A stretch of DNA of 64,000 bases from Cellulomonas sp. PhB150. Its GTDB lineage: Bacteria; Actinomycetota; Actinomycetes; Actinomycetales; Cellulomonadaceae. The stretch is taken from assembly GCF_003755175.1 (NCBI RefSeq), contig NZ_RKHX01000001.1, positions 744,001 to 808,000 of the forward strand, read 5' to 3'. Positions 42,174 to 50,046 of the stretch are shown one piece after another; within the stretch, counting starts at the first letter, position 1, and the number at the start of each line of letters is the position of its first letter. The position numbers and the translations under genes are program-made. The notes under the pieces were generated by a model, which saw only the letters and a program-made list of their open reading frames with translations, made no database searches and was not told where the DNA came from.

Positions 42174-43028
42174 ATGGCAGCGGACCAGGCTCACGACGAA
42201 GATCGCGGCGGTCTGCGCGGGTTCCTGGCCAGGGGCGGCATCTGGCGCTGGCTCCTCGTCCTGGTCGTGTACCTGGTGATCTACGAGCTCGCGAGCGTGG
42301 TCGCCGGGAAGGTCGGGGGCCACTACGTCGACGACGACCTGCTCAGCAGCGTCGGGTCCGTGTTCTTCCAGGTCACGTTCGCACTCATCGTGGGCGCGAT
42401 CGTCCTGATCGCGTTCACGGCGTACATGGGGTGGGGCAGCGAGGTGTTCGGGCGGCAGCGCGTCTACCGGTCGTGGTGGATGTGGCTCGGCCCCGTCATC
42501 GTGCTGATCCCGATCGTCCTGCGGGTGCTGGGCATCGAGTGGGGGGCGCACACGACCGAGATCGTCGTCGCGATCATGGTGACCGGGCTCCTGATCGGCT
42601 TCGTCGAGGAGCTCGCCTACCGGGGCATCGGCGTCAAGATGGTCCGCGACGGCGGTCACCGCGAGTGGGTGGTCGCAGCGGTGACCTCGCTCTTCTTCGG
42701 ACTCTCCCACCTGTCGAACCTGATCGGCGGGCAGTCGGGCCAGACCGTGGGCGGCACGGTCGTCTACACGATCGCGTTCGGCGTCCTCATGTACCTCACG
42801 CTGCGCACCACGGGCTTCCTGGTCGGCGCGATGCTCCTGCACGGGCTGACCGACCCCACGACCATCCTCGCGACGGGCGCCATCGACGAGGTCAAGACGG
42901 GTGCGGCCGCGAACTCGATGCTGACCGGCGCGGCCGGCTTCACCGTCCTCGTGATCCTCGCCGGGTACGTGCTGCTCATCTTCATCCGCGGCCGCGTCAC
43001 GGATCGTCGCGCTGCTCAGGTGGCGTAG
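42174..43028 (+). CDS. CPBP-family intramembrane protease (Abi/CAAX type)
   Basis: A 284-residue membrane protein with about eight helices. LIGFVEELAYRGIGVKMVRD carries the EE-x3-R motif, ALIVGAIVLIAFTAYMG and VAAVTSLFFGLSHLSNLIGG the FxxxH motif, and LVGAMLLHGLTDPTTI the second conserved His. These glutamates and histidines form the metal-like active site of CPBP proteases, which cut or modify membrane peptides and in some bacteria protect against self-made bacteriocins. ATG 42174 follows GAGGGGG; a TAGCGT box lies upstream. The target is unknown. Confidence 0.9.
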   Translation: MAADQAHDEDRGGLRGFLARGGIWRWLLVLVVYLVIYELASVVAGKVGGHYVDDDLLSSVGSVFFQVTFALIVGAIVLIAFTAYMGWGSEVFGRQRVYRSWWMWLGPVIVLIPIVLRVLGIEWGAHTTEIVVAIMVTGLLIGFVEELAYRGIGVKMVRDGGHREWVVAAVTSLFFGLSHLSNLIGGQSGQTVGGTVVYTIAFGVLMYLTLRTTGFLVGAMLLHGLTDPTTILATGAIDEVKTGAAANSMLTGAAGFTVLVILAGYVLLIFIRGRVTDRRAAQVA

Positions 43029-43053: not shown

Positions 43054-44094
43054 GTGAGCCAGCTCGAGGACGTCGTCGACGACCTCTACTCCGGCCCGCT
43101 GTCGGAGTTCGTCGCCCGTCGCACCGCCGCGGTGAAGGCCGCCCGGTCCGCCAAGGACCGCGGGCTCGCCACCGCCATCGGTGAGCTGCGCAAGCCGACG
43201 GTCTCGGCGTGGCTCGCCAACCTCCTGGTGCGTGACCAGCCCGACGTGGCAGAGCAGATCGTGGCGCTGGGCGCGGGGCTGCGCGAGGCCGAGCGGTCGC
43301 TGGACGGACCGGCTCTGCGACAGCTCTCGTCCCAGCGGCGCCAGCTCGTCCGGTCCATGGTCGCGCGGGCGCGGACCCTCGCGCAGGCGGAGGGTGCCGC
43401 CGTGGGCGAGAGCGCGGTGCACGAGCTGGAGACGACGCTCGCCGCTGCCCTTGCCGACCCCGAGACCGCCCGCGAGGTCGTCTCCGGCCGACTCACCGGT
43501 CCCCGCGAGCACGTCGGGTTCGGTGGGACCGACGCTTCCGAGCAGTCGGCCTCCACGCCGTCGTCGCGACGAGCGGACACGCCGGCACCGACCCCGACGG
43601 CCCGGGCCGGCGGCAGGTTGCGGCTCGTCGGCGACGCCGAGCGAGCACCGAAGGCGACCGGACGGACGCCCGGCCTGGCGTCCGGCCCGAGCCCGGAGGA
43701 GCACCGCCGGGCCCGACGCGAGGAGCGGGAGCGGCGCGTGCGTGACGAGGCCCGCGCTGCGTGGGAGCAGGCCGACCGGGCGGTGCAGGAGGCGCTGCAG
43801 CGCACGGAGGCTGCTGCGGGGGTGCGCGACGAGAGCGCCGCGCAGACCGCGCGGGCCGAGGAGGCCGCCGAGCGGGCGCACGCGTCGGAGGAGGACCTCG
43901 TCGAGGAGCTCGCCGAGGTGCGGCGCCGGTTGACGGCGGCGGGCAAGGCAGCGACCGCTGCCGACAAGGCGCTCGCGACGAGCCAGCAGACGCTGCGCGC
44001 CGACGAGAAGGACGTCGCGGCCGCGGACCGCGCGCTCCGACGCGCGCAGGATCAGCTGCTGGCCGCCGCCGAGTCGCTCGACCAGCACGCCTGA
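43054..44094 (+). CDS. Actinobacterial coiled-coil protein of unknown function
   Basis: A 346-residue soluble protein. The N-terminal 120 residues (LYSGPLSEFVARRTAAVKAA, ELRKPTVSAWLANLLVRDQP, RRQLVRSMVARARTLAQAEG) match an uncharacterised actinobacterial family that I know only as hypothetical. A Ser/Pro/Thr linker (about 150-205) leads to a long Ala/Glu/Arg coiled coil to the end (EARAAWEQADRAVQEALQRT, AAGKAATAADKALATSQQTL). It may be a structural or nucleoid-associated factor, but nothing in the sequence proves this. It starts with GTG; the peptide operon follows after about 150 bases. Confidence 0.75.
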   Translation: MSQLEDVVDDLYSGPLSEFVARRTAAVKAARSAKDRGLATAIGELRKPTVSAWLANLLVRDQPDVAEQIVALGAGLREAERSLDGPALRQLSSQRRQLVRSMVARARTLAQAEGAAVGESAVHELETTLAAALADPETAREVVSGRLTGPREHVGFGGTDASEQSASTPSSRRADTPAPTPTARAGGRLRLVGDAERAPKATGRTPGLASGPSPEEHRRARREERERRVRDEARAAWEQADRAVQEALQRTEAAAGVRDESAAQTARAEEAAERAHASEEDLVEELAEVRRRLTAAGKAATAADKALATSQQTLRADEKDVAAADRALRRAQDQLLAAAESLDQHA

Positions 44095-44172
44095 CGACCG
44101 GGTGCCGCCCAGCCGTCGGGGGCGCGGCGTGCAGCCCGCGCAGGGAGCGCACGCCGAACGGCGCGATGTGCG

Positions 44173-44211
44173 GCTGCTCGATACGCTCGCGGAGCGACAT
44201 GGTCGAGCAGC
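44173..44211 (+). promoter_or_regulatory. Nested inverted repeat with -10 box before the repeat-peptide operon
   Basis: GCTGCTCGA (44173-44181) and TCGAGCAGC (44203-44211) are perfect 9-bp arms. Between them lie a TANNNT box, TACGCT (44182-44187), and a smaller CGCTC-gcg-GAGCG hairpin. This could be an operator straddling the promoter, an RNA hairpin in the leader, or the terminator of the upstream gene. The first gene of the operon starts at 44247. Confidence 0.5.
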
Positions 44212-44246
44212 GGCGCAGTCGCGTCACGCAAGACGAAGGGACGACG

Positions 44247-44492
44247 ATGGGCATCAACGACGACGACATCAGCACCGAGGCGCCCGCGGCGGGTGAGGGC
44301 ACGGCCGACGGCGGCGCCAACCCGAGCGGGCACGACGGCGGCGCGGACGGCTCGGCGGGCGAAGGCACGGCCGACGGCGGCGCCAACCCCAGCGGCCACG
44401 ACGGCGGCGCGGACGGCTCGGCGGGCGAAGGCACGGCCGACGGCGGCGCCAACCCCAGCGGCCACGACGGCGGCGCCGACGGCTCGGCGTGA
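44247..44492 (+). CDS. Repeat peptide, candidate RiPP precursor
   Basis: An 81-residue hydrophilic peptide: a 15-residue acidic start (MGINDDDISTEAPAA), then three amino-acid-identical 22-residue repeats that fill the rest. Each repeat begins GEGTADGG and contains NPSGHDGGADGSA; it has one His, one Asn and three Asp and no Cys, Lys, Arg or aromatic residue. No signal peptide is seen. AAGGGA precedes the ATG. The stop overlaps the start of a JmjC-like cupin oxygenase (GTGATG), so the two are made together. The repeats look like multiple cores of a modified peptide, with His, Asn or Asp as hydroxylation targets. I know no described family that matches. Confidence 0.8.
   Translation: MGINDDDISTEAPAAGEGTADGGANPSGHDGGADGSAGEGTADGGANPSGHDGGADGSAGEGTADGGANPSGHDGGADGSA
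44292..44489 (+). repeat. Three 66-bp tandem repeats coding identical 22-residue units
   Basis: Units lie at 44292-44357, 44358-44423 and 44424-44489. Unit 1 differs from unit 2 at four bases and unit 2 from unit 3 at one; all five changes are synonymous third-position changes. Confidence 0.97.
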
Positions 44493-45733
44493 TGGCTGGT
44501 TCGAGCACCGGCCGGGGGTCCGCCCTCGGCCGGTGCCTCGGCACGTCGCCGGAGACCTTCGCACGTGACCACTGGGGCACGGCGCCGTTGCTCTCCCGGG
44601 CCGGCACCCTGGGCGACGGCGGGTTCACGGACCTGTTCTCCGTGGAGGCCGTCGACGAGCTCGTCGCCCGCCGGGGTGTCCGCACGCCGTTCGTGCGCAT
44701 GGCCAAGGAGGGCTCCGTCCTGCCGGCAGGTCGGTTCACGGGCCCGGCTGGTTACGGCGCCGAGGTCGGCGACCAGCTCTCGAGCGAGAAGGTCCTGGCC
44801 GAGTTCGGCGCCGGCGCCACGATCGTGCTCCAGGGCCTGCACCGCCTGTGGCCTCCCCTGATCGACTTCACCAGGCGGCTCGTCGCCGAGATCGGGCACC
44901 CCGCCCAGGTCAACGCGTACGTGACGCCGCCGTCGTCGCGCGGCTTCGACGCGCACTACGACACGCACGACGTGTTCGTCCTGCAGGTCGCCGGCGAGAA
45001 GCACTGGAGGATCCACTCCCCCGTGCACGTCGACCCCCTCGCGGACCAGCCGTGGTCGGCGCATGCGGACGACGTCGCCCGCGCGGCACAGGGCGAGCCC
45101 GTGATCGACGCGGTCCTGACCGCGGGCGACGCGCTCTACCTGCCGCGAGGCTGGATCCACTCCGCCGAGGCCCTGGGCGACACCTCGGTGCACCTCACCG
45201 TCGGGATGTCGGCGTACACACGTGCCGACGTCGTCGACGCCCTGCTCGGTCTCGTCGGCGACACCCCTGCCCTGCGCTCCTCCCTCCCGCTCGGCGTCGA
45301 CGTCTCGGACCCGGAGGAGCTGCGCCCGATCGTCGATTCCGTGCTGGCGGACCTTGCCAACGCCCTCGCGCAGCGATCCGACCGGGCGGCCGAGCTGGTC
45401 GCCAAGGGGCTCGGCTCGCGGTTCGAGCAGCAGACCCGGCCCGAACCGGTCGGCCCCGTGCAGACCCTCGCGGCGGCGGCCCTCCTCACGACGACCCACC
45501 GCGTGCGGCTGCGGGAGGCGCTCGGCGCATCGGTCGAGGACGCTGACGACACGGTGCGCCTGAGGGCCCGCGGGCGAGCACTGGTGTTCCCTGCCGAGGC
45601 GGGGCCGGCACTGCGCCACCTGCTCACCGGCGAGCCGGTGGCCGTCGGCGACCTGCCCGGGCTCGACGCCGCGAGCGCCGTGGTCGTGGCTCGACGCCTC
45701 CTGCGCGAGGGGTACGTGGTGACGGCGGGGTGA
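44489..45733 (+). CDS. JmjC-like cupin protein (cupin_4 / ribosomal-oxygenase type)
   Basis: A 414-residue protein of the Fe(II)/2-oxoglutarate oxygenase family that includes bacterial RoxA/YcfD and human MINA53/NO66, which hydroxylate Arg or His side chains. The cupin core spans about residues 100-240. Metal ligands are His156 and Asp158 in FDAHYDTHDVFVLQVAGEKH and His224 in ALYLPRGWIHSAEAL. The C-terminal half (about 240-414) fits the dimerisation and winged-helix parts of this family. The start is GTG 44489 or ATG 44492; both overlap the stop of the repeat peptide, and the gene's own stop overlaps the ferredoxin-like gene. By context the repeat peptide is its likeliest substrate. Confidence 0.88.
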   Translation: MMAGSSTGRGSALGRCLGTSPETFARDHWGTAPLLSRAGTLGDGGFTDLFSVEAVDELVARRGVRTPFVRMAKEGSVLPAGRFTGPAGYGAEVGDQLSSEKVLAEFGAGATIVLQGLHRLWPPLIDFTRRLVAEIGHPAQVNAYVTPPSSRGFDAHYDTHDVFVLQVAGEKHWRIHSPVHVDPLADQPWSAHADDVARAAQGEPVIDAVLTAGDALYLPRGWIHSAEALGDTSVHLTVGMSAYTRADVVDALLGLVGDTPALRSSLPLGVDVSDPEELRPIVDSVLADLANALAQRSDRAAELVAKGLGSRFEQQTRPEPVGPVQTLAAAALLTTTHRVRLREALGASVEDADDTVRLRARGRALVFPAEAGPALRHLLTGEPVAVGDLPGLDAASAVVVARRLLREGYVVTAG

Positions 45734-46656
45734 GTGCCGAAGCGCCGCTCTGGGCACCCTGCAGCGACCGGTCGCGGGAGCGCGCCGACCCGCTGGCCGG
45801 GACCGGGTCGCACGGCGACACCTGGTTCCTGGTGGAGAGCTCGGGCGGGTGGGGGCGGCACGCCTTCCTCGACCCGCCGGCCGACGTCGAGCTCGGGCGC
45901 GCGCTCGTGCGCCGCATCGAGGGCGCGGGCACCCGCCCCCTCGCGATCCGCCGCGTCGGGCGTCGCCCGCGGCAGACCTCGACCCGCTGGGCCTTCGTCG
46001 ACTCCCGGGCCGGGCAGGAGGCGATCGTGTGGGGCGAGGTCGACGACCCCCGGGACCTGCTCGACGTGCCGCTCGACGGCTCCGCAGGGACGCCCTCGGA
46101 GCGACCGGTCTTCGCCGTCTGCACCCATGCGCGCCACGACCAGTGCTGCGCGGTGCGCGGCCGCCCCGTGGCCGCCCGCCTCGCGGAGCACTACCCCGAC
46201 GAGACGTGGGAGTGCTCGCACCTCGGCGGCGACCGGTTCGCCGGCACCATGGTCGTGCTGCCGCACGGGCTGTACTACGGCCGGGTCGACGACGCCGACG
46301 CGCTGGATGTCGCGACCGCCCACGGACGCGGCGAGGTGCTCCCGCACCTCCTGAGAGGGCGCAGCTCGTTCTCCCACGCGGTCCAGGCCGCTCAGCACGC
46401 TGCCCGGTCCCGGTTCGGCGACAACCGCATCACCTCCTACGCCCCGCTGCGTGAGGAGCGAAGCGGCCGGACCTGGTTCGTGGAGCTCGCCACTCCCGAC
46501 GGGTCGCTCGACGTCACGCTCGAGGAGGCGGGGTCGCCGCCCCTGCTGTCCACCTGTGCGGCGACTCGCGCCATCGCCGTCCCCCAGCTCGTCGTGGTGC
46601 AGGTCGGCCCGCACCGACCCGGGGATGGCGTTCGGCGTGCCGCACCCGAGGGCTGA
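45730..46656 (+). CDS. Sucrase/ferredoxin-like protein (Apd1/Aim32-type thioredoxin-like ferredoxin)
   Basis: A 308-residue soluble protein of the sucrase/ferredoxin-like family. The key region is VCTHARHDQCCAVRGRPVAA then ETWECSHLGGDRFAGTMVVL: Cys and His residues in a CxH...CC and CSHxGG arrangement as in yeast Apd1, which holds a [2Fe-2S] cluster. The N-terminal third (DTWFLVESSGGWGRHAF) and the PHGLYYGRV segment are also typical. It starts with GTG inside the cupin stop (GTGA), so it is the third coupled gene of the operon. It probably moves electrons, perhaps for a second modification of the repeat peptide or to keep the oxygenase iron reduced. Confidence 0.85.
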   Translation: MSAEAPLWAPCSDRSRERADPLAGTGSHGDTWFLVESSGGWGRHAFLDPPADVELGRALVRRIEGAGTRPLAIRRVGRRPRQTSTRWAFVDSRAGQEAIVWGEVDDPRDLLDVPLDGSAGTPSERPVFAVCTHARHDQCCAVRGRPVAARLAEHYPDETWECSHLGGDRFAGTMVVLPHGLYYGRVDDADALDVATAHGRGEVLPHLLRGRSSFSHAVQAAQHAARSRFGDNRITSYAPLREERSGRTWFVELATPDGSLDVTLEEAGSPPLLSTCAATRAIAVPQLVVVQVGPHRPGDGVRRAAPEG

Positions 46657-46687
46657 CCCAGCGGCAGCTGACCTCCGCGGCGCGGAC

Positions 46688-46709
46688 GTCCGGGCCTCAC
46701 GTCCCGGAC
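46688..46709 (+). terminator. Hairpin after the repeat-peptide operon
   Basis: GTCCGGG and CCCGGAC are perfect 7-bp arms around an eight-base loop, starting 32 bases past the ferredoxin-like stop. Confidence 0.5.
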
Positions 46710-46818
46710 CGGGCATCTCGTTCACCAGGCAGAGTGCCTTGACGAACTGCCCGCTTTGGGGCCATCTGGGACCAGGGCACGACTCTGCGACGGCGCAGGA
46801 CCGACGACCGGGGGCGCG

Positions 46819-49800
46819 ATGCGGGTTGCGGGCACGTGGAGGGAGCGGCGCCGCGCGACGGCGTGCGCGGCTGCGGTCGCGCTCGTCGCCGCCGCACTTC
46901 TGACGCCTGCAGCGGTCGCTCCGGCCATGGCGGCCTCGCCGCCGGACACGGTCGACACCGGCGACCCGCCACCGCCCGCGGACCCGACGACTCCCGGCGG
47001 CCTGGAGCAGGCGACTCCGGTCCCGGACGACAGCGTCGTCGAGATGCCGCCCCCGGCCTCCCCGGGCATCGTTGCGAATGCGAACACCGTCAAGATGGCC
47101 TGGGTCGGAGCGCCGAGCGATCGGCCGGCCGACGCGGCTCTCCTCACCCTTCAAGCCGCTCTGAACGCAGCGCCTGCCGGGGCCACGGTCTCCTTCGACC
47201 CGAACGACTACGCGTTCACGGGTGCCCTCACGGTGCCGCGGGCGGTGACGCTCGACAGCAGCGCCGCGTCGATGCTCTACACCCGGGTCACGGTCAGCGG
47301 CGGCGGCCTGGCGCTGGACGACGACGTCACCATCGCCGCCGCCAACACCGGCGCCGTGATCACCGTCACGGCGGCGAACGCGGTCCTGACCGACGTGACC
47401 ATCCGCAACCCGACCCCTGTGCTGCGACCTATCGGCGTCCAGCTCGGAGCAGGCGTCACGGGCGTCGTCATCGACGGGCTCGACGTGGACGGCGCGGGTC
47501 AGGCGTCGTCGTACGGCGTCAACCTCACGACTGGCGCTGCGACCGTGACCGATCCCACGATCGCGGGTGTCGCCTCTGGCGTCGTCGTCACCGCGGCCTC
47601 GGCGGCGGCCGGTATCACCGTGCGCGGCGGCTCGATCGCTGCGGTCACCGCCGGAATTGCTCTTGGCTCCGCCACCGGCCCCACGGTCGACGGCGTCGAC
47701 GTCAGCGGGCCTGCGGGCGCGGGAACGGGGATCGACCTGGCGAGCTCGACGGGCGCCGTCGTCGAGGCCGTCACCGTGCATGGTTTCGCCCGCGGCATCG
47801 GCACATCGCCGACGAATGCCGGCGCCGGCGCGACGATCACGGACGCGGTCGTCGACGGCAGCGGCCGCGAGGGCATCGCCCTCGGTTCGACGAGCGGCGC
47901 CGAGGTCACCGATGCCACGATCACGCTGACGGGAGCGGTGCAGACCACTGGCATCCTCACGCTGCTGGCCACGGGCGTGGTGATCGAGAGCCCCACGATC
48001 TCGGGCGCGATGTACGGCATCACGACCAGCGCCGCGAACACCGGCGCTGGACCGACGATCACCTCACCGACGATCACCGCCTTCGGTGGCATCACGCTCG
48101 GCTCGACGAAGGACGCGCTCGTCACCGACGCCGTGCTCGACAGCGGGACGTGGAGCGGGGGCACGGGGATCAACATCGTCAACGCCGGGCGCGTGACGAT
48201 CTCGGACGTGACCGCCTCGGGCTTCCTCTACGGGATCGCCTCGCAGTCGACGATCGATCCGGCATCGAACCGCGTCGACATCTCGATCTCCGACGTCCAC
48301 GTCGACGGAGCACCGAGCGCGTCGCACGGCGTCTCTCTGTACGACGTGGAGAACGCGACCGTCTCGCGCCTCACTGCGGACCTGACCGGGACCGGCCTCG
48401 TCGTCCACGAGTCGCAGGACGTGCAGGCGCAGGACCTCGTCATCACGGGCCACGAGGGGCCGACCTCCGTCACGGGAGCATCGATCCTGCGCGCCTACGG
48501 CTCCCTTGACGTCGACGTGAACCGTGCCTCGATCGACGGCGGCTCGTACGGCTTCTTCTACTCGGGCACCGACGGGTCCACGGTGACCAACGCGACGGTC
48601 GAGAACCTCGTGGAGTACGGGCTGTACGGGCGCAGCGTCGCGAACCTCGACGTGAGCGCGACCACGTTCACGGGCAACTCGGCCGTCGGGCTGTTCATCG
48701 TGACGAAGCCCGAGGACGGCATCAGTCACGACATCGCGGTGCACGACGACGTCATGACGGACAACGACCACGGGATCAGCGTGCTGCAGGGCACCACCGG
48801 AACGCGCATCACCGGGAACACCGTCAGCGGCCAGCCCGACTTCGTCGTCGCCGGCCCTGCACACGACCTGCTGGTCGCCGACAACGCGGTCGACCAGGTC
48901 GGCACCGCCGACGACGCTGCCATCACCGTCGCGCCGCTGTGGGAGGACGGCGCCCTGGCCGGCTCGTACTCCTCGTCGAACGTGCATGTGGCCCGGAACG
49001 TGTTCTCCGGCACGGGTACCTGGCTCCAGGTCGGCACCGCCGACCCTGACGCCGAGGCGGCGACGCGCCGGACCCTGCGCGACGACGTCCTCGTCACCGG
49101 CAACACCTTCCCTGCGGGCTCGACCGCAGTGCGCACGTTCGGCAACGCCGTCGTCGGAACGGACACGGCCACGAACGTCGCGCGCGCGCTGCCCGTCGAC
49201 GGTCCGATCGCCGTCGACGCCCGGGACCACGACGACCCCAACGACTGGGGGTCACGGTGCCGAGCGACCGGCTTCCTCGACGGCGCCTCGTACTACGACG
49301 GCGGCGGCGCAGGGGTGTACGAGCTCACCGATGCCCCCGTGCTCTACCCGATGAGCTGCATCGACCTGTCCCTCGTCGAGACCCTCGATTCCAGCACCGG
49401 CGCGCCGTTCCGCGCTGGCGACCTCGTGACCTGGGTCCTCACGCCGCACAACGACGGACCCCGTGTCGCGCCGGCCGGCTGGACGATCACCCAGCTCCTG
49501 CCCGCCGGGGTGGAGCTCGTCTCAATGACGGGTGACGGCTACACGGTCAGCGGAGCCACGGCTACGGCCACAGCAGACCTCGCCGTCGACGCCGACGGCG
49601 GCGCGCTGACCCTCACGGTGCGTCTCGTCACTCCCCCGCCCGGCCGGTCGACGATGCGCGACGTCGCCTACGTCGCGCCCGCACCCGACACCGATCTCGA
49701 CGGCGACGGCGTGGTCGACGCGATCATCGAGCGGCGGAGCCCGCTCACCGTCCCCACGATCAGGACCGACACCACGGAGTCCGCGACCGACAACGACGCC

Positions 49801-50046
49801 CAAGGCCTCTGGGAGGCGGTCGGTGCGCCGGCGCCGACCCCGACGCCGTCCCCCACCCCTGACGACCCGACACCGGCGCCCAGCGACTCGACGGCACCGA
49901 CGGCCGCGCCCGGCGAGGGCACCGGCGAGCCACCCGCGCCGATCGCTCTGACCGGTGCGGACGTCATCGGGCCCGGCCTGGTTGCCGCGGTCCTGGTCGC
50001 GGCCGGAGCCGCACTGGCGTTCCTGCGCCGCCGACGTATGCCGTGA
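46819..50046 (+). CDS. Large sortase-anchored parallel beta-helix surface protein
   Basis: A 1075-residue exported protein. The signal peptide (ATACAAAVALVAAALLTPAA) ends near AMAA at about residue 40. After a Pro-rich spacer, residues about 90-800 are a right-handed beta-helix built from short repeated turns (TDVTIRNPTP, VDGVDVSGPAG, NVTGNT-like ITGNTVSGQPD). Residues about 860-970 resemble a DUF11-type domain (RAGDLVTWVLTPHNDGPRVA). A Pro/Thr stalk leads to a sorting signal: IALTG, a hydrophobic helix and FLRRRRMP. It may bind or act on polysaccharide, but no catalytic residues can be named. ATG 46819 is used after a GGGGG run. Confidence 0.85.
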   Translation: MRVAGTWRERRRATACAAAVALVAAALLTPAAVAPAMAASPPDTVDTGDPPPPADPTTPGGLEQATPVPDDSVVEMPPPASPGIVANANTVKMAWVGAPSDRPADAALLTLQAALNAAPAGATVSFDPNDYAFTGALTVPRAVTLDSSAASMLYTRVTVSGGGLALDDDVTIAAANTGAVITVTAANAVLTDVTIRNPTPVLRPIGVQLGAGVTGVVIDGLDVDGAGQASSYGVNLTTGAATVTDPTIAGVASGVVVTAASAAAGITVRGGSIAAVTAGIALGSATGPTVDGVDVSGPAGAGTGIDLASSTGAVVEAVTVHGFARGIGTSPTNAGAGATITDAVVDGSGREGIALGSTSGAEVTDATITLTGAVQTTGILTLLATGVVIESPTISGAMYGITTSAANTGAGPTITSPTITAFGGITLGSTKDALVTDAVLDSGTWSGGTGINIVNAGRVTISDVTASGFLYGIASQSTIDPASNRVDISISDVHVDGAPSASHGVSLYDVENATVSRLTADLTGTGLVVHESQDVQAQDLVITGHEGPTSVTGASILRAYGSLDVDVNRASIDGGSYGFFYSGTDGSTVTNATVENLVEYGLYGRSVANLDVSATTFTGNSAVGLFIVTKPEDGISHDIAVHDDVMTDNDHGISVLQGTTGTRITGNTVSGQPDFVVAGPAHDLLVADNAVDQVGTADDAAITVAPLWEDGALAGSYSSSNVHVARNVFSGTGTWLQVGTADPDAEAATRRTLRDDVLVTGNTFPAGSTAVRTFGNAVVGTDTATNVARALPVDGPIAVDARDHDDPNDWGSRCRATGFLDGASYYDGGGAGVYELTDAPVLYPMSCIDLSLVETLDSSTGAPFRAGDLVTWVLTPHNDGPRVAPAGWTITQLLPAGVELVSMTGDGYTVSGATATATADLAVDADGGALTLTVRLVTPPPGRSTMRDVAYVAPAPDTDLDGDGVVDAIIERRSPLTVPTIRTDTTESATDNDAQGLWEAVGAPAPTPTPSPTPDDPTPAPSDSTAPTAAPGEGTGEPPAPIALTGADVIGPGLVAAVLVAAGAALAFLRRRRMP

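Follow-up and report, generated by a model that had tools for sequence, protein, structure and literature searches.

Three overlapping genes that look like a compact operon lie on the forward strand of a 64,000-nucleotide window of the Cellulomonas sp. PhB150 genome (contig NZ_RKHX01000001.1, positions 744,001 to 808,000; positions below are counted from the first letter of the window). They encode an 81-residue repeat peptide, an NO66-like cupin oxygenase and a Suc_Fer-like protein predicted to carry an iron-sulfur cluster. On balance, we lean towards the reading that the oxygenase beta-hydroxylates aspartates in each repeat of the peptide, its predicted substrate. The trio appears to work like a system for ribosomally synthesized and post-translationally modified peptides (RiPPs) with a JmjC hydroxylase, of which the precursor, the likely target residue and the iron-sulfur partner are apparently new.

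Linkage of the repeat peptide and the oxygenase

The trio is joined by stop-to-start overlaps of 1 to 4 nt, so that the GTGATG and GTGA junctions described in an earlier note on this DNA are borne out by the coordinates. The TGA of the peptide gene (44490-44492) overlaps the cupin ATG at 44492 and an alternative GTG at 44489, and the cupin gene, ending at 45733, shares GTGA with the start of the third gene, whose GTG begins at 45730. The GTGATG junction suggests translational coupling from the peptide to the cupin. The short acidic leader and the three identical 22-residue repeats that the same note had read in the peptide are all present at 44247-44492; Tandem Repeats Finder reports a 66-nt unit in 3.1 copies with 96% match, and neither Pfam nor NCBIfam gives a match for the peptide. 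The 3.8 Mb genome holds a single match each for the cupin (E <= 0.001), the Suc_Fer family and the peptide profile.

First-round relatives were the best 80 of at least 583 cupin matches from a scan of genome contigs, and the set comprises 95 loci, with the window copy (L087) included and some genomes represented twice. The peptide lies upstream of the cupin in 94 of the 95 loci; 88 have the Suc_Fer gene, and 87 have the two together. In the only locus where the peptide was missed (L076), much of the peptide region is masked by N and the DGGADGTA end is kept. Within the genus the cupin is carried by 15 of 81 genomes, the window's included, so its distribution there is patchy. In peptide and cupin identity, loci of these genomes agree with loci of named Cellulomonas (for example L086 and L005). 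When a profile of 14 peptides was searched without reference to the cupin, 48 of 394 genomes of the class gave a match (E <= 0.001), while the cupin is present in 89 of the same genomes (E <= 1e-40). In 47 of the 48, a cupin lies no more than 162 nt from the peptide match, and the exception (G284) is a weak profile match (3e-4). The trio is conserved among relatives, a point on which the earlier note had staked its proposal.

The 94 first-round peptides represent 80 distinct sequences, 72 of which have three units by pattern. A total of 229 units were found, each of 22 residues, with the consensus GEG[PTV]ADGG[AS]NPxGHDGGADG[ST]A, several letters of which are fixed by the unit-finding pattern itself. 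Mean entropy at codon positions 1, 2 and 3 is 0.24, 0.13 and 1.20 bits (227 repeat units with DNA), which indicates that the peptide is translated and that its protein sequence is constrained and under selection. The names listed for database matches to the peptide profile are all 'hypothetical protein' except that of P0128 (Leifsonia poae), 'BatC protein', which looks like a transfer error.

The wider set consisted of the cupin loci of all 89 class genomes and of 34 further genomes from a phylum search (cupin in 49 of 396 genomes, 15 shared with the class set). These 256 loci, first-round loci included, were reduced to 206 distinct cupins by removing duplicates on a 130-residue cupin stretch. 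Upstream of 193 of the 206 there is a repeat peptide, compared with 22 of 1,254 control reading frames (other long frames of the same loci, typed by the same rules). Peptide and oxygenase are paired in a nearly obligatory way across a broad spread of Actinomycetota. Four motif classes were distinguished: type A (103 loci) has the 22-mer of the window, type B (37 loci) has DGGAD repeats without the type-A block, type C (46 loci) has Asp-rich repeats such as DGDATD and DADGTD, often after a leader such as LTDEDIETV, and type D (7 loci) has EVEDLAEVTSRDxTAGGDxDGTDSSSDFI and close variants. The control starts gave no type A, B or D match and 22 of type C. A DDDI-type leader motif occurs in 99/103 type-A and 36/46 type-C peptides and in 0/22 control matches, and a looser leader pattern is present in 160 of the 193 peptides. 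The motif classes were adopted in place of Asp density alone (at least 5 Asp in 25 residues), which was dropped as a criterion because it accepted 171/200 cupins together with 219/1,393 control starts, often in the wrong frame.

No peptide was recognised for 13 cupins, among which L218, L221, L249 and L255 have less than 160 nt of upstream DNA and L076 is N-masked. L211, also counted here, has SADGTDQGVxGGTYGPRDA-like repeats upstream of the cupin, outside the typing patterns. In three type-C loci (L181, L196 and L225) the chosen frame seems to be wrong or unrelated, and L225 has two copies of a PTEDDENLDAPGEHSQDTGDE-like repeat upstream of its cupin. Type D constitutes a second precursor-like family of 32-37 aa (L193, L229, L231, L232, L233, L234 and L236); these peptides adjoin divergent PF08007 cupins scoring 144-166, and the Suc_Fer gene was not found in those loci.

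When the five peptide labels (types A to D and none) were placed on a FastTree tree of 204 cupins, they required 19 changes compared with 91.1 after shuffling, a value as low being reached in 0 of 200 shuffles. The tree contains near-copies and several long branches, so its details are unsure, and the label for no peptide is scattered without clustering. The small number of label changes indicates that peptide and enzyme evolved together. This bears on the alternative that the cupin has a ribosomal protein or some other protein as its substrate, the acidic peptide being an independent small protein, metal-binding or regulatory, that only shares the operon. The cupin does have the fold of ribosomal oxygenases, and unmodified Asp-rich repeats could bind calcium; however, a peptide that almost never occurs without the cupin, a family in which most cupins have a peptide, and the shared evolution of the two make this alternative distinctly improbable. 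The earlier note proposed an undescribed RiPP-like system in which the cupin has the peptide as its substrate; as a prediction, this is strongly supported by the linkage and by the way peptide type follows cupin phylogeny.

The oxygenase and its likely target residue

The cupin matches PF08007 (JmjC_2) with an E-value of 2.3e-29 and a score of 101.9 (cut-off 22 bits), and Cupin_8 at 9e-10. His155, Asp157, His223 and Lys170 are kept in all 204 aligned cupins and His159 in 202, as scored by alignment columns, since a regular expression failed on divergent members. The intact iron ligands claimed in the earlier note (His156, Asp158 and His224, counted from GTG) are the same residues, numbered 155, 157 and 223 from ATG. 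The structural model has the NO66 fold, NO66 being the nearest solved relative at a sequence identity of about 25%. The 40 hydroxylase-type structures topping the fold list (NO66, MINA, YcfD and YxbC) are all hydroxylases or putative hydroxylases.

In the model, residues 337-413 form a winged-helix-like domain with strands at 337-340, 347-351, 354-359 and 362-367, followed by helices at 368-377, 385-387 (a 3-residue turn) and 393-405 and a strand at 409-412. This order resembles that of RiPP recognition elements (RREs), which, in the available part of the source, are defined by three strands followed by three helices and are reported in PF08007 proteins (PMC12710340).

Among the peptides, His is missing from 0/103 of type A, 7/37 of type B, 31/46 of type C (31/43 without the three doubtful loci) and 6/7 of type D, or 44/193 overall, and Asn is missing from 56/193. 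The element that recurs across peptides is Asp before Gly, Ala, Ser or Thr. Since His and Asn are each missing from many peptides while the iron site is kept in 204/204 cupins, Asp is favoured as the target, and the cupin probably beta-hydroxylates Asp of the peptide. His, Asn and Asp had all been named as candidates in the earlier note, and of these Asp is the best supported across the family. His as a target common to the whole family was rejected on these counts; the rejection is not extended to the window's own subgroup.

Enzymes such as NO66 and MINA, the nearest solved relatives, hydroxylate His in ribosomal proteins, and the cupin might likewise hydroxylate the His of each HDGG motif, a residue that 227 of the 229 type-A units contain, other subgroups having switched target. 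The same iron site serving cupins whose type-B, -C or -D peptides have no His argues against this, and we regard it as unlikely. Nor is simple hydroxylation of Asp the only chemistry to be weighed. The peptide could be the substrate of a desaturation, decarboxylation or cross-linking, perhaps helped by the iron-sulfur protein, because simple 2-oxoglutarate hydroxylation requires no ferredoxin and the Suc_Fer gene accompanies many of the pairs (91/103 type A, 28/37 type B, 40/46 type C). The hydroxylase character of the closest structures speaks against this, as does the lack of any sequence feature pointing to another outcome, and such chemistry seems quite improbable.

Aspartate hydroxylation, which remains our preferred reading, also has several points to its disadvantage. 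Besides the near-constant His of type A, there is the precedent of the nearest solved relatives, which act on His (NO66, MINA) or Arg (YcfD). Types B and C were recognised partly by their Asp-richness, which makes some of the constancy of Asp a product of the typing, so that the missing His carries more of the argument. A Pfam search of the C-terminal part of the cupin gave no RRE-type domain and no match for the domain alone, and the DDDI-type leader motif is found in only 7/37 type-B and 0/7 type-D peptides. The Suc_Fer family is not tied to the cupin (203 of 394 class genomes at E <= 1e-15, compared with 89 for the cupin), and no site for a metal-responsive regulator was found in 77 upstream regions.

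As a mechanism, the winged-helix-like domain of the oxygenase would grip the DDDI-type leader and feed the repeats to the active site, each hydroxylation consuming one O2 and one 2-oxoglutarate. More weakly, the Suc_Fer-like protein may keep the oxygenase iron ferrous or act on the product, which would be a peptide with several beta-hydroxyaspartates. Outside the trio and its antisense shadows (minus-strand families of 73 and 30 loci, set aside in the neighbourhood count), no family occurs in more than 10 of the 74 loci with long flanks; there is no conserved fourth gene, and so no transporter, peptidase or regulator is a regular companion. In the same 74 loci, no cleavage site or protease for the peptide was identified. 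Since the surroundings of the trio show no conserved transporter, protease or other gene, the product is probably an intracellular metal binder. The low change of the peptide within type A and the lack of regular companion genes would fit a cofactor-like or metal-binding role inside the cell better than that of a secreted antibiotic.

The predicted iron-sulfur partner and known systems

The third gene matches PF06999, and C131, C140, C162, H164 and D168 are invariant among 21 aligned relatives. The Apd1/Aim32 bishistidinyl [2Fe-2S] proteins have the motif C-X8-C-X24-75-H-X-G-G-H according to the part of the source available (PMC11138216), whereas the window protein has C-X8-C-X23-H-L-G-G-D. 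The C-X8-C spacing and H-x-G-G are thus shared, but the second His is replaced by Asp and the second spacing is X23; among 163 wider relatives the fourth ligand position is taken by Asp in 147 and by Cys in 2, the motif being unreadable in 14, so that Asp is found in 147 of 149 readable relatives. The 'Apd1-type' label given in the earlier note therefore fits the cysteine pair and not the H-x-G-G-H end. A Cys2-His-Asp [2Fe-2S] site is possible from the motif, the cluster itself being predicted. A Foldseek comparison of the model (mean predicted local distance difference test score, pLDDT, 87.4) with solved structures gave no match at E <= 0.001, and a PDB sequence search gave nothing convincing, so the assignment rests on Pfam and the motif. 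By type, the Suc_Fer gene was also found in 0/7 type-D loci and 4/13 loci without a peptide; all these counts per type are lower bounds, as some loci end before that gene. The third gene is a frequent companion of the pair and not an obligatory one.

Among the closest known systems is biphenomycin biosynthesis, in which, in the available text, the JmjC/cupin hydroxylases PbsQ and BipG/BpmG act on ornithine of a RiPP precursor (PMC12257519, PMC12707348). As is predicted for the window, a 2-oxoglutarate JmjC/cupin enzyme there adds a hydroxyl group to a side chain of a ribosomal precursor whose gene lies close by. In biphenomycin, however, ornithine hydroxylation is described as one of several tailoring steps, with genes for a multinuclear non-heme iron-dependent oxidative enzyme (MNIO), a B12-radical S-adenosylmethionine enzyme, an arginase and a protease, whereas the window trio stands alone with an Asp-repeat precursor in which ornithine and arginine are uninvolved. 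NO66, MINA and YcfD share the PF08007 domain, the HxD...H site and the fold with a C-terminal winged helix, but have ribosomal-protein substrates, whereas the window cupin is adjoined by a dedicated repeat peptide gene. The closest bacterial JmjC homologues have been placed in RiPP-like contexts (Bregman et al., 2025, PMC12710340), again with a JmjC enzyme and a strand-then-helix C-terminal domain; the precursor family, the Asp repeats and the iron-sulfur partner are not described in the available part of that paper. The MNIO of nitrilobacillin biosynthesis makes beta-hydroxyaspartate in a RiPP, as far as its available text describes (PMC13060819), and belongs to an enzyme family unrelated to the cupin. 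No account of the peptide or the trio was found among the matches listed in the mainly open-access literature. This agrees with the earlier note, which knew of no characterised system with the trio, but there is precedent for JmjC/cupin hydroxylases with a RiPP precursor as substrate.

A more far-reaching version, which we put forward only tentatively and consider doubtful, is an undescribed RiPP class over Actinomycetota, in which a JmjC oxygenase carrying a recognition domain of its own would make an intracellular poly-beta-hydroxyaspartyl metal ligand, served by a dedicated [2Fe-2S] protein with new Cys2-His-Asp ligands. If our preferred reading is true, relatives of the human ribosomal oxygenases NO66 and MINA would stand at the centre of a peptide pathway widespread in bacteria, the guiding of JmjC enzymes to their substrates by RRE-like winged helices would become testable, and at least 258 protein clusters matching the peptide profile would gain a role. 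As a metal ligand, a peptide that is encoded by a gene and carries many beta-hydroxyaspartates would be out of the ordinary.

Feature coordinates and surroundings

Table 1. Features of the three-gene locus, in window positions.
Feature	Position	Strand	Basis or remark
Repeat peptide gene, candidate precursor	44247..44492	+	81 aa + stop; relatives in 94/95 first-round loci
Acidic N-terminal stretch MGINDDDISTEAPAA, candidate leader / recognition sequence, 15 residues	44247..44291	+	
Repeat 1, GEGTADGGANPSGHDGGADGSA	44292..44357	+	
Repeat 2, GEGTADGGANPSGHDGGADGSA	44358..44423	+	protein sequence same as repeat 1
Repeat 3, GEGTADGGANPSGHDGGADGSA	44424..44489	+	protein sequence same as repeat 1
GTGATG junction, peptide stop overlapping cupin start	44489..44494	+	sequence
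JmjC_2 / cupin Fe(II)/2-oxoglutarate oxygenase, 413 aa	44492..45733	+	PF08007 2.3e-29; nearest solved relative NO66
Iron ligands His155 and Asp157 (HxD)	44954..44962	+	204/204 aligned cupins
Iron ligand His223	45158..45160	+	204/204 aligned cupins
C-terminal winged-helix-like domain, residues 337-413	45500..45730	+	RRE-like strand-then-helix order in model
Suc_Fer-like (predicted thioredoxin-like [2Fe-2S]) protein, 308 aa	45730..46656	+	PF06999 1.6e-18; alignment; model pLDDT 87.4
C131-X8-C140, candidate cluster cysteines	46120..46149	+	invariant in 21/21
H164-L-G-G-D168, Asp where Apd1/Aim32 have second His	46219..46233	+	Asp in 21/21

A scan of 43900-46900 for sigma-70 promoters and terminators found none. 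Upstream sites for IdeR, Zur, Fur, LexA, CsoR, SigR and others, searched with consensus strings, showed no clear enrichment over shuffles in the 77 upstream regions. Upstream of the trio, an Rce1-like CAAX-type membrane protease (PF02517, 5e-14) is encoded at 42174-43025 (+), a position at which no family recurs in more than 10 of the 74 long-flank loci. Downstream, at 46756-50046 (+), there is a frame of 1,096 aa that is rich in short repeats and has, at its C-terminal side, a hydrophobic stretch and then RRRR; it resembles a large wall- or membrane-anchored surface protein.

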